Notes under the pieces: model-generated
The model's input: only the letters and a program-made list of their open reading frames with translations
The model's database searches: none
Told to the model about the DNA's origin: nothing
In this document: positions 3,198-49,546 of the stretch, piece after piece
Numbering within the stretch: position 1 is the first letter of the stretch
Layout of the letters: each line of letters opens with the position of its first letter
Assembly: GCA_035712365.1 (NCBI GenBank)
Contig: DASTAW010000062.1
Location: 1 to 64,000, forward strand
From: Terriglobia bacterium
GTDB taxonomy: Bacteria > Acidobacteriota > Terriglobia > UBA7540
Reading direction: 5' to 3'
Length of the DNA stretch: 64,000 nt
Made by a program: the position numbers and the translations under genes

Positions 3198-3497
3198 ATG
3201 AGCGAAAGCAACGGAGGGTCGAAATTGGCTTTCTTTCTGGCTGGAGCAGGGATTGGGGCGATACTGGCCTTGCTTTTTGCTCCCAAAACGGGCCAGGAGA
3301 CGCGCGACTACATCGCGCAGCGGGCCAGTGAAAGCAGGGACCGTGTCGCGGAAAAGAGCAAGGAATACCGCCAGAGGGCCGAAGGTTACGTCGACCGGGC
3401 CCGGGGCACGGTTGCCAAGCAGAAGGAACAGTTGTCCGCCGCGCTTGAAGCCGGCAAACAAGCTTACCGGGAGGAAAAGGGCAAGGTGGCTCAGTAA
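3198..3497 (+). CDS. YtxH domain-containing protein (second copy)
   Basis: 99 residues. The hydrophobic segment AFFLAGAGIGAILALLFAP is followed by KTGQETRDYIAQRA, the same YtxH signature as the preceding gene. A longer lysine/glutamate/arginine-rich helical tail is likely to be coiled or to bind envelope partners. It has its own ribosome binding site (AGGAGG at about 3186). It probably arose by tandem duplication and is co-transcribed with the first copy and the DUF948-like gene that follows 35 bases later. Confidence 0.85.
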   Translation: MSESNGGSKLAFFLAGAGIGAILALLFAPKTGQETRDYIAQRASESRDRVAEKSKEYRQRAEGYVDRARGTVAKQKEQLSAALEAGKQAYREEKGKVAQ

Positions 3498-25040: not shown

Positions 25041-25511
25041 ATGCCAAAACTCAGCGCAGGATTGGTGATGTATCGGGTGCGAGAAGGCCGGGTCGAACTG
25101 CTGCTGGTCCATCCCGGCGGCCCCTTCTGGAAAAAGAAAGATGCTGGGGCATGGAGCATACCCAAGGGTGAGGTCTCCGCCGGGGAGGATAATCTGGATG
25201 CCGCCCGGCGCGAATTCTTCGAAGAGACAGGCATATCCCCTGAAGGTCAATTCATCCTGCTGGGCCAGATTATCCAAAAGAGCGGGAAAGTTGTCCGTGC
25301 ATGGGCCTTCCAAGCCGATTGCGATCCGGCGGTCCTGAAAAGCAACACCTTCACCATGGAATGGCCGCCGCGTTCGGGAAAGCAACAGGAATTTCCCGAA
25401 ATCGATCGGGCCGCCTTTTTTACGCCGGAGGAGGCGAGAAAAAGAATCAATCCCGCTCAGACTGCATTGATTGACGAATTGGAGAGGATTACGGGGCATG
25501 GAAATAAATAG
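25041..25511 (+). CDS. NUDIX hydrolase
   Basis: 156 residues. The Nudix box is complete (GEVSAGEDNLDAARREFFEETGI, matching GX5EX7REUXEEXGU), and binds the divalent metal used to hydrolyse a nucleoside diphosphate linked to another moiety. The N-terminus MPKLSAGLVMYRVREGRVELLLVHPGG and AWSIPKGE are typical of diadenosine-polyphosphate/DUF4743-like small Nudix enzymes. Substrate not determinable. ATG 25041 fits the family; an in-frame GTG at 25014 adds nine residues without similarity. Confidence 0.92.
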   Translation: MPKLSAGLVMYRVREGRVELLLVHPGGPFWKKKDAGAWSIPKGEVSAGEDNLDAARREFFEETGISPEGQFILLGQIIQKSGKVVRAWAFQADCDPAVLKSNTFTMEWPPRSGKQQEFPEIDRAAFFTPEEARKRINPAQTALIDELERITGHGNK

Positions 25512-25666
25512 GCTCGTTGAATCGGTCCGTGTGCCTGATGCGGGTTTTGAACCTCCGAAGGCGATGCAGACGTGAGGGATGGGTCCCAAGGGCGCGTCGT
25601 CCCAGGTCCAACGCCTCGATTGCACCTGTTTTTTTGTTTCGCTGATCGGGTCGATTCATTGTATTC

Positions 25667-25672
25667 TATAAT
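25667..25672 (+). promoter_or_regulatory. Candidate -10 box upstream of the atp leader
   Basis: A perfect TATAAT in the sequence GTATTCTATAATTCC. No matching -35 is visible at the usual distance (TGATCG lies there). A transcript from here would begin near 25679 and reach the structured RNA about 70 bases later. Confidence 0.4.
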
Positions 25673-25748
25673 TCCTGGCTGTCACGGACAGGATCGCTGC
25701 CTTAAGTTCTGAACTCCGGACATCTCGCAAGGATGATGATGAACAAGG

Positions 25749-25825
25749 CCCCCCGAAAGGGTACCGACGGGGAGCGGTGGAAGCTGTGCGGCCTGTAACG
25801 GCCGCCCTCCCAATCGGTAGTTTTT
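25749..25825 (+). ncRNA. Candidate structured RNA / attenuator upstream of atpZ-atpI-atpB-atpE
   Basis: CCC-GAAA-GGG (25752-25761) forms a GNRA-capped hairpin. It is followed by three nested stems: TACCGA 25762-25767 with TCGGTA 25814-25819, GGGAG 25770-25774 with CTCCC 25807-25811, and GCGGCC 25788-25793 with GGCCGC 25800-25805 around TGTAAC. TTTTT follows at 25821-25825. It could be a terminator of upstream transcription, an attenuator, or a riboswitch-like leader. No known riboswitch consensus was matched. Confidence 0.5.
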
Positions 25826-25896
25826 GATGAATCGCCGAGGCCCTTATCGTGGCAGCGCGATGGCCGGCCCGTTGTTTTTTTGATTGAGGCGTGGGA

Positions 25897-26166
25897 ATGG
25901 CGTTCCCACAAAAACCGAATTCCGGAAGCATTTGGGCGCAGGTTGCTTTCTATTCGAGCCTGGGCTTTATTATTCCAGGCGCTATGGTAGGAGGCGTCCT
26001 GCTGGGCTGGTTTCTCGATGACCACCTGCACACGTCGCCGGTTTTAGTTATTATTGGAGGTTTGGCAGGGGCGGCTGGAGGCATTATCGAGGTCCTCCAA
26101 ATTCTGGCCCGGACAGAAAAAAATGCAGAGCGGGACAATGAATCCAGCAATTCTGGACGGCGCTGA
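25897..26166 (+). CDS. atpZ: AtpZ/AtpI family F0 assembly-associated protein
   Basis: 89 residues with two transmembrane helices (about residues 15-35 and 43-66): WAQVAFYSSLGFIIPGAMVGGVLLGWFLDD and LVIIGGLAGAAGGIIEVLQIL. This matches AtpZ (AtpI-related) proteins that precede F0 genes and are linked to Mg/Ca uptake or c-ring assembly. A GTG at 25891 is an alternative start two codons upstream. It overlaps the next gene by 44 bases, indicating translational coupling. Confidence 0.8.
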   Translation: MAFPQKPNSGSIWAQVAFYSSLGFIIPGAMVGGVLLGWFLDDHLHTSPVLVIIGGLAGAAGGIIEVLQILARTEKNAERDNESSNSGRR

Positions 26167-26536
26167 AGTCAGGCTGCCGCGATGGATGGGATCTCTCGCC
26201 GGCCTCGGCATTCTCGTTTTCCTGGTTCTTGGCCGGACGCAGATGGCTGGCGCTTTCGCTGTGGGTGCGGGAATTTCCATTCTGGGTTATCACTGGCTGG
26301 CGCAAGCTGTGAAGGCTGCGCTCAATGCCGGCGAACGAGCCGCGCCCAAGCGGGTCTTGATAAGTCTTGTCCTGCGGTATCCTATCGCATTCGGAGCTGT
26401 GCTCATCTTTTATGAAACGCATTGGCTTCCGTTCACGGGAATTCTAGCGGGTCTGTTTGTGCCGTTTGCGGGGACCCTTGCTGAATCCCTGAATTTGCTG
26501 GGAAGGTTGATTCGGTCAGACGACTATGGGGCATGA
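26123..26536 (+). CDS. ATP synthase subunit I-like membrane protein
   Basis: 137 residues with about four transmembrane helices (GSLAGLGILVFLVLGRTQ, GAFAVGAGISILGYHWLAQAV, RVLISLVLRYPIAFGAVLIFYETHWLPF, TGILAGLFVPFAGTLAESL). The layout resembles ATP synthase I (AtpI) proteins, chaperones for c-ring assembly. It overlaps atpZ upstream (44 bases) and atpB downstream (11 bases). Start could be ATG 26123 or ATG 26138; both lie inside the atpZ coding region. Confidence 0.7.
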   Translation: MQSGTMNPAILDGAEVRLPRWMGSLAGLGILVFLVLGRTQMAGAFAVGAGISILGYHWLAQAVKAALNAGERAAPKRVLISLVLRYPIAFGAVLIFYETHWLPFTGILAGLFVPFAGTLAESLNLLGRLIRSDDYGA

Positions 26537-27347
26537 CCTCTGGTTCACAGCCATCCTGAATAAGCTTTTCGGGCATGCGGTCGCGGCCCTCCTTGTGGCG
26601 ATTTCGTACCTTCCGCACATGGCCTTCGCGCGGCCTGCAGATCCGGTGCATCCCATTCCGGACTACGTTGCGGGTGAAATCCTCGTACTCCTGATCATTG
26701 TCGTGGGTGCGATCATTCTTCGGACCCGGCTGTCCATGGAGCACCCTGGGAAGTTCCAGATGGCGATGGAAGTTTATCTCGAGTTTAGTCGCAACCTGGT
26801 GGATGAAGTGGTCGGGCACGGCGGCCGGCGCTACGTTGCCATGGTCGGCACTCTCGGACTTTTCATCCTGCTTTGCAATCTTGAGGGTTTGGTTCCGACA
26901 CTCATCACACCCACGGCGACCGTTTATGTGCCTTTGGGGTGCGCGGTGGCCGCCTTCCTTCATTACAATTTCCACGGATTCCGCGTGAAAGGAATCTTCG
27001 GGTATCTGCGGCACCTGAGCGGGCCAATGCTCGCGATCGCCTGGCTATTTTTCCCCATTGAAGTGTTCAGCAACTTCCTGCGGATGCTTTCCCTCACCGC
27101 GCGTTTGTGGGGCAACATGTTGGCCAGTGTGACGGTGCCCGGTCTCTTTATGTCGCTCGGTTTGAATTTCTATGGCTACTTGGTGCATGCGGGATACGTT
27201 ATCTTGAGCCCTGTCGGACTTTTAATCGCGGTTTTGGCCCCGGTGATATTCATGGCGCTGCACGTATTCGAAGCACTCCTGCAAGCCTACGTTTTTATGA
27301 TTCTCCCGGCACTTTATATCAGCTTGGCGACGTCGGAGGAGCACTAA
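26526..27347 (+). CDS. atpB: F0F1 ATP synthase subunit a
   Basis: 273 residues. Subunit a forms the two half-channels that load and unload ions on the c-ring. Diagnostic motifs are HYNFHGFRVKG, PIEVFSNFLRMLSLTARLWGNMLA with the essential stator arginine in SLTARLWGN, and a C-terminal ALLQAYVFMILPALYIS. About six transmembrane helices follow an N-terminal segment that is hydrophobic and may be cleaved. It overlaps the atpI-like gene by 11 bases and is separated from atpE by 135 bases that hold a hairpin. Confidence 0.96.
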   Translation: MGHDLWFTAILNKLFGHAVAALLVAISYLPHMAFARPADPVHPIPDYVAGEILVLLIIVVGAIILRTRLSMEHPGKFQMAMEVYLEFSRNLVDEVVGHGGRRYVAMVGTLGLFILLCNLEGLVPTLITPTATVYVPLGCAVAAFLHYNFHGFRVKGIFGYLRHLSGPMLAIAWLFFPIEVFSNFLRMLSLTARLWGNMLASVTVPGLFMSLGLNFYGYLVHAGYVILSPVGLLIAVLAPVIFMALHVFEALLQAYVFMILPALYISLATSEEH

Positions 27348-27442
27348 CGGCCACCTGTCTTTTAATTCGGCTTTATCCGTAAGCGTGAGGCCCGCCCTGC
27401 CCCAGCGGTGGCGGGTAACCACCCACTGGCGGAAATTTCATA

Positions 27443-27471
27443 AAACTCTCCAGAGGCAACCTGGAGAGTTT
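27443..27471 (+). promoter_or_regulatory. Intercistronic hairpin abutting the atpE ribosome binding site
   Basis: AAACTCTCCAG (27443-27453) pairs perfectly over 11 base pairs with CTGGAGAGTTT (27461-27471) around AGGCAAC. The AGGAGG ribosome binding site starts two bases later (27473-27478). There is no T-run, so it is not an intrinsic terminator. It probably shields or defines the 5' end of an atpE mRNA or modulates its initiation. Confidence 0.65.
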
Positions 27472-27482
27472 CAGGAGGAATG

Positions 27483-27800
27483 ATGAAAGCGAAGGTAGTT
27501 GGTTTGATTGGTATAGCGATGGGGCTGTTCTACACGGTCCCACTGCTCGCGGCGCAGGGGTCCGCCGGTTCGGCGGGGGGCGGCACCGACTGGGTGCCGA
27601 TCGGTGCGGGCGTGGGCATGGCAATCGCTTCGGGACTTTGCGGATTAGGACAAGGAAGGGCCGCTGCTGGCGCTTGTGAAGGTGTCGCCCGCAATCCCGG
27701 CGCTCGGCCGGGAATCTTTCTGTTCCTGATTTTGGGACTAATCTTCATCGAGTCCCTGGCCCTGTACACATTTGTGATTATTTTCCTCAAAGTGAAGTAG
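27483..27800 (+). CDS. atpE: F0F1 ATP synthase subunit c
   Basis: 105 residues, longer than the usual 70-90 because of an N-terminal signal-like hydrophobic segment (VVGLIGIAMGLFYTVPLLAAQ). The two-helix hairpin follows: GAGVGMAIASGLCGLGQGRAAAGACEGVARNPGARPGIFLFLILGLIFIESLALY, with the polar loop ARNPGARP and the ion-carrying glutamate in FIESLALY. A glutamine in GLGQG, the glutamate, the following serine and the tyrosine four further on match four of the ligands used by Na+-type rings, but the threonine is replaced by leucine. ATG 27483 is preferred over 27480 because of spacing to AGGAGG. Confidence 0.93.
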   Translation: MKAKVVGLIGIAMGLFYTVPLLAAQGSAGSAGGGTDWVPIGAGVGMAIASGLCGLGQGRAAAGACEGVARNPGARPGIFLFLILGLIFIESLALYTFVIIFLKVK

Positions 27801-36847: not shown

Positions 36848-36869
36848 CTGAAGGCAACGCAACAACCTG

Positions 36870-36915
36870 CTTGCCGCAGAGATGCCCAAGTCCTCCCGGG
36901 TTTCTCTGCGGCAAG
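36870..36915. terminator. 13-base-pair perfect hairpin between convergent genes
   Basis: CTTGCCGCAGAGA (36870-36882) is the exact reverse complement of TCTCTGCGGCAAG (36903-36915), with a 20-base loop. It sits between the convergent TadG-like and DUF2490 genes, a usual place for a bidirectional terminator, but it has no T-run. Confidence 0.5.
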
Positions 36916-36963
36916 TTGAGCCGATGGCTCCTCTATCGCCCCATCCACTTCCTGCCCGATTTC

Positions 36964-49345: not shown

Positions 49346-49546
49346 ACGCCTGCCCTTACGCGGTGCTGATTGCGGCAGGTGCGGCGACCCTTTTCTTATC
49401 CACGGCAGGAAGACCCGCGGCGGCAGCCAACACTGCTTCGATCTACCGCCGCGAGTCCGCCCATGTGTAAACCTTACCGGGTGGAATTTTCAGGTTAAGC
49501 CCATCAAGTTGCAGGTTGCTGCGCGCCCGTGGGCGCCTTCGCGTTG

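Follow-up and report, generated by a model that had tools for sequence, protein, structure and literature searches.

A conserved, apparently undescribed structured RNA between atpB and atpE, and a local leader fold upstream of atpZ, in the ATP synthase operon of a Terriglobia bacterium

The spacer between atpB and atpE in the ATP synthase operon of a Terriglobia bacterium carries a conserved structured RNA of about 56 nt (27377-27432 on the + strand of the window, by which we mean the whole 64,000-nucleotide stretch of DNA analysed here) that is found in most of the sampled genera of its class and is apparently undescribed. The segment from which the study started, at 25749-25825 of the same strand, is a predicted folded part of the ~215-nt 5' leader of the atpZIBE operon and is probably neither a broadly shared riboswitch nor a conserved terminator. 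The account that best explains both, a passive fold in the leader together with a spacer RNA that acts in cis on atpE, has in our judgement about an even chance of being right as a whole.

Results

Organization of the operon and its upstream region

The window belongs to a genome of 4.67 Mb in 65 contigs, and most of the named relatives recovered with AtpB are MAGs under the title Acidobacteria or Terriglobia. The order of genes on the + strand is a Nudix-like gene (stop at 25511; we take the name from the first-pass annotation of this DNA), atpZ (25897-26166), atpI, atpB (26526-27347; a subunit, PF00119) and atpE (27480-27800; c subunit), with the Shine-Dalgarno sequence of atpE at 27473-27478. 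A terminator-like hairpin followed by T7 at 25603-25635 (+ strand; -7.9 kcal/mol, z -2.26, equalled in stability by 8 of 200 shuffles) probably ends the Nudix transcript. Beyond it, at 25636-25729 (+ strand), lies a stretch conserved in the congener G002 that holds a putative atp promoter and the first ~50 nt of the leader. The TATAAT at 25667-25672 is without a -35 match, and the promoter is termed putative because a promoter scan gave no + strand match there; atpZIBE appears to be an operon with its own promoter in this genus.

The identity of this early stretch to G002 (36/43 at 25636-25678 and 47/52 at 25679-25729) is far above that at coding third positions, with no wider homologue, and such conservation is ordinary, since similar conserved blocks occur in other intergenic stretches. 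Matches of 15-23 bases to about 25683-25703 in family genomes (E 0.08-1), considered as a repeat or mobile element, were rejected as by eye unrelated and mostly coding, and a viral-contig scan with the leader block gave no match. Also rejected was an upstream ORF of 20 codons, running from ATG ATG at ~25736 to TAA at ~25796 behind a possible Shine-Dalgarno sequence, because in G002, by eye, the frame is cut short by an early stop and disrupted by indels whose lengths are not divisible by three. The start codon of atpZ (25897) sits at the loop of a hairpin at 25891-25909 (+ strand) with the perfect stem GTGGGAA/TTCCCAC, which is identical in G002, is equalled by 1 of 200 shuffles and may modulate atpZ translation.

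Structure and covariation of the spacer RNA

As a control across the region syntenic between the window and G002, 98 intergenic and 167 coding stretches were scored on each strand. Values of z at or below -3 were obtained for 8/98 and 6/98 intergenic stretches on the two strands and for 1/167 and 1/167 coding ones, and the atpB-atpE spacer gave the best + strand score (z -6.2), better than that of the flagged hairpin. The control also brought out strong conserved folds between convergent ORFs at 36848-36963 and 49346-49546, which may be terminators.

The spacer RNA has an outer helix P1 (27377-83/27426-32) and an inner helix P2 (27390-96/27410-16), separated by an asymmetric internal loop with a GUGA/CCACC core in which GUG pairs with CAC (27385-87/27420-22); a further hairpin (27443-27471) stands between the element and the atpE Shine-Dalgarno sequence, all on the + strand. 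Related loci share the motif P1-pyrimidine-GUGAG-P2-loop-P2'-AACCACC-two bases-P1'.

Two alignments show strong covariation in these helices. The first, made with MAFFT, comprised 23 copies drawn from 30 loci by the pattern AG[CT]GTGAG + ACCACC (seven loci went unmatched), and it showed both-side changes at 9 of the 17 pairs and 31 both-side cells against 10.5±2.6 in shuffled alignments (reached in 0/500), a signal that was lost when the pairing partner was slid; invariance of the core among these copies is partly by construction, because the selection pattern demands it. The second brought together 65 sequences, namely 40 further loci hand-chosen from the listed matches of a covariance model (R2) to span families, 24 of the earlier ones and the window. 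Here both-side cells numbered 166 against 48±5.5 shuffled (again 0/500), in an alignment of related sequences whose fitting to the model favours pairing. Both-side changes were seen at 13 of the 17 pairs, the three GUG/CAC pairs were invariant, and GUGA and CCACC were unchanged in all 65 sequences. The pyrimidine before GUGA is correlated with the dinucleotide that follows CCACC: where the latter is CA, in 18 sequences, the pyrimidine is always C. The correlation suggests that a contact is made outside the helices.

Distribution and context of the spacer RNA

Searched without the pattern filter, R2 matches 310 of 399 class genomes and 118 of 136 genera at E <= 0.01. The 89 genomes without a match are partly the product of strict filters, since four of them (G110, G128, G143 and G149) appear with a further model, R3. 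All 64 loci other than the window have the RNA flanked by AtpB on one side and AtpE on the other, both matches being on its strand; in a few cases the model's variable 3' flank touches the AtpE match. A phylum search with R3 recovered at least 46 genomes labelled as the same class or nearer at E <= 3e-7, with 42 in family f10. Among the matches listed, G047 is the same-class miss (R3 E 0.11); by eye its spacer (L179) has both core strands, GTGAG and AACCACC, set further apart than in the other copies, and seems to hold an interrupted copy. Ten genomes labelled as the same phylum only gave weak R3 matches (E 1.7e-4 to 0.0099), which we take to be chance, being without AtpB/AtpE context: nine loci from eight of the ten, G513 and G590 (genus label as G480) being left out, gave no match to AtpB or AtpE below E 0.13.

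The RNA is absent from six atpB-atpE spacers of genera g6 and g14 in family f1 (L020, L025, L026, L030, L031 and L033), which are natural losses, and since two genera of the same family lack it, the element is not indispensable. Its core end (CCACC-NN-C) lies 14-20 nt from the Shine-Dalgarno sequence in most families outside f1 and ~45 nt from it in most of f1, where the extra hairpin intervenes. Pairing of the Shine-Dalgarno sequence to the element averages 0.12 over 64 of the 65 loci, the sequence having been located by a simple pattern that failed in one locus and may be wrong in a few. Because it is mostly unpaired to the element, the RNA does not simply hide the ribosome site, and such hiding is not seen as a rule in these folds.

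The leader hairpin at 25749-25825

The flagged hairpin begins ~240 nt past the Nudix stop and ends 72 nt ahead of the atpZ start, much as the first-pass annotation had it (about 70 bases), and its distance from the TATAAT is 77 nt rather than the 55 given there. All the stems described below are present in the minimum-energy fold of 25745-25830 (86 nt). The GNRA-capped hairpin that was said to precede the nested stems can be read directly, though it has only 3 bp (CCC-GAAA-GGG, 25752-25761); it is retained in a 231-nt fold and absent from a 151-nt one. The nested stems of 6, 5 and 6 bp (TACCGA 25762-25767 with TCGGTA 25814-25819; GGGAG 25770-25774 with CTCCC 25807-25811; GCGGCC 25788-25793 with GGCCGC 25800-25805) are likewise confirmed in the sequence, as is a T-run (T5, 25821-25825) after them. 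What had been read as an internal bulge of ~13 bases is instead predicted to form a fourth, GGAA-capped hairpin (CGGU-GGAA-GCUG, 25775-25786, pairs 25775-78/25783-86), and the core (25762-25819, + strand) is accordingly a predicted three-way junction. Equally stable shuffles numbered 18/200 for the 86 nt (z -1.48), 5/200 for a 67-nt core (z -2.36) and 71/200 for 151 nt with context (z -0.40), so the predicted fold modestly exceeds chance.

Relatives of the leader are few. With a 221-nt query, G002 gave the one real homologue in 151 genomes (short matches in G034, G124 and G016 were by eye unrelated and in mostly coding contexts), and a 155-nt query again found G002 as sole homologue among 399 class genomes. 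The third congener, G001, offers no further leader for comparison, since its assembly gave no match to atp F0 genes in DNA, protein or Pfam searches. Ten upstream regions were read by eye, those of the window, G002 and eight further loci: in six (L013, L014, L017, L018, L019 and L021) an apparent nuoN-like gene ends at or near the atpZ start, and in L016 and L020 other genes lie upstream of atpZ, the L016 spacer being without visible similarity. The single homologue and the differing upstream regions make the leader genus-specific within what was searchable. A two-sequence model of the junction (R1) had strong matches only in G000 and G002; among 39 family genomes it gave five weak matches (E 0.02-0.6), judged by eye, and in 469 kb of the window and G002 genomes no convincing junction copy.

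In G002 the flagged hairpin is identical at 52/81 positions and the stretch after it at 41/61. Fourfold-degenerate sites, taken from 36 ORFs in the region of synteny, are identical at 3432 of 5434 (63%), so the hairpin drifts at about the neutral rate. Of its 24 pairs, G002 keeps 13 as they are, has a one-sided change in 2 and has changes on both sides, with standard pairing retained, in 4; the remaining 5 are broken, among them one of the three GNRA-hairpin pairs. Compensatory change, which the first-pass annotation had named as a check, is thus weakly present, with 4/24 pairs double-changed beside 5/24 broken in one informative relative. When the changed letters were re-dealt in 20,000 trials, four double changes were reached in 3.5% and the observed number of standard pairs in 1.3%; a pair-shuffle control reached as much in 31/500, and RNAalifold with column shuffles gave z -3.1 (0.4% of 500), or -4.6 for a shifted stretch. 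These comparisons with one homologous leader support the view that pairing has been kept better than sequence drift predicts, and a selected structure at 25762-25819 is possible, with modest support from them.

Several readings of this hairpin have to be weighed. That it is a functionless chance fold of a GC-rich, neutrally drifting leader is a real if lesser prospect, which we hold at somewhat over one chance in three: it would account for an identity close to that of fourfold sites, for the 18 in 200 equally stable shuffles and for the fact that the minimum-energy fold of G002 itself (-36.7 kcal/mol) is a different one, the consensus costing it a rise to -23.8 when imposed as a constraint. 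It accords poorly with double compensatory changes in three helices and with alifold scores among the best of the 98 intergenic stretches on that strand. It looks improbable that the hairpin controls read-through into atpZ as an intrinsic terminator or attenuator, possibly with a second T-run. The window does have a GC-rich stem immediately followed by T5, and further on, at 25857-25879, the terminator scan picked up a weak terminator-like site with T7 (the flagged fold is not among its results, being of a kind that the loop limit of 3-8 leaves out). But a run of five T is short, no competing antiterminator pairing came to light, and in G002, the one homologue, no T-run survives, T5 being interrupted and the second run at 25873-25879 likewise. 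A conserved terminator at the hairpin is therefore unlikely, and the earlier suggestion that its T-run attenuates atp expression goes unsupported; for an independent small RNA, also suggested, there is no support beyond the fold itself. Nor is the hairpin a terminator of the Nudix gene, which stops at 25511: a terminator-like hairpin with T7 already stands at 25603-25635, and the DNA match to G002 begins only at 25630. Most likely, the leader fold has a passive role, as a spacer and as protection for the 5' end of the message.

Discussion

How bacteria obtain many c subunits for every a subunit when the two genes are adjacent is a long-standing question about operons, and an RNA with covarying helices and an invariant core, lying exactly between atpB and atpE in most of the class, offers a directly testable handle on the subunit ratio. 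We infer that the spacer RNA is transcribed and that its most likely role is a cis effect on the atpE portion of the message. It would serve as a binding site for a protein or the ribosome, or would shield a 5' end left by processing, and the many-copy c subunit would in this way be produced in larger amounts than the single-copy a subunit, whose gene immediately precedes the element. A positive role on atpE is preferred because the c subunit is required in many copies per a subunit.

Segmental mRNA stability can set subunit ratios, and the spacer RNA might be an element of mRNA processing or decay that lets the atpE part outlive atpB. Its intercistronic place would suit such a function, as would the extra hairpin before the Shine-Dalgarno sequence in f1 genera. 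Against it, the invariant core exceeds the needs of a simple protective stem; we consider the idea possible and lean clearly against it. A ligand-sensing riboswitch for atpE we regard as doubtful, at about half that likelihood. An invariant internal-loop core between covarying helices beside a ribosome site, and the correlation of the base before GUGA with the two bases after CCACC, are what such a switch might present. It would, however, stand within an operon and upstream of a single gene only, it matches no known riboswitch family, and no consistent expression platform is seen, Shine-Dalgarno pairing reaching at least 0.47 in only 6 of 64 loci, in single equilibrium folds in which a ligand-driven switch would not show.

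Beyond the preferred reading of a passive leader and a cis-acting spacer RNA, a bolder and tentative proposal, which we think distinctly less probable, is that the spacer RNA is an undescribed, class-wide cis protein-binding site or switch of Terriglobia-like Acidobacteria that sets c-subunit output, perhaps adjusted to energy state, with 25762-25819 a second, young element on the same message. The flagged hairpin alone, as a local leader fold, is of little importance; the spacer RNA is a candidate new protein- or ligand-binding RNA.

Comparison with known RNAs

At the gathering score no Rfam 15 family was found in the window or in 20 related loci, and permissive thresholds gave nothing plausible at 27377-27432. 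A literature search, weak on subscription journals, found no report of structured RNAs within the atp operons of Acidobacteria. Of the elements that might be likened to the two described here, the intrinsic terminator or attenuator resembles the leader hairpin in its GC-rich stem and T5 (25762-25825), whereas the stem of the latter is a three-way junction and its T-run is not conserved in G002. The Na+-I riboswitch (DUF1646 motif, RF03071) is, according to PMC9337991, present in Acidobacteria as well as other phyla and able to stand ahead of ATP-synthase genes, and to that extent it is a comparable structured RNA. No match to RF03071 was obtained in the whole genome (E <= 10), nor in the leader.

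Two further systems bear on the spacer RNA. The ATPC RNA motif, which cyanobacteria carry upstream of the gene for subunit c, is similar in being a structured RNA near a c-subunit gene, and the Rfam result at the element covers it only if the motif is in that library. In E. coli the atpB-atpE spacer holds a translational enhancer of atpE, an unstructured U-rich stretch. The acidobacterial element is like it in place and in the need for an excess of c subunit, and unlike it in being a covarying two-helix RNA.
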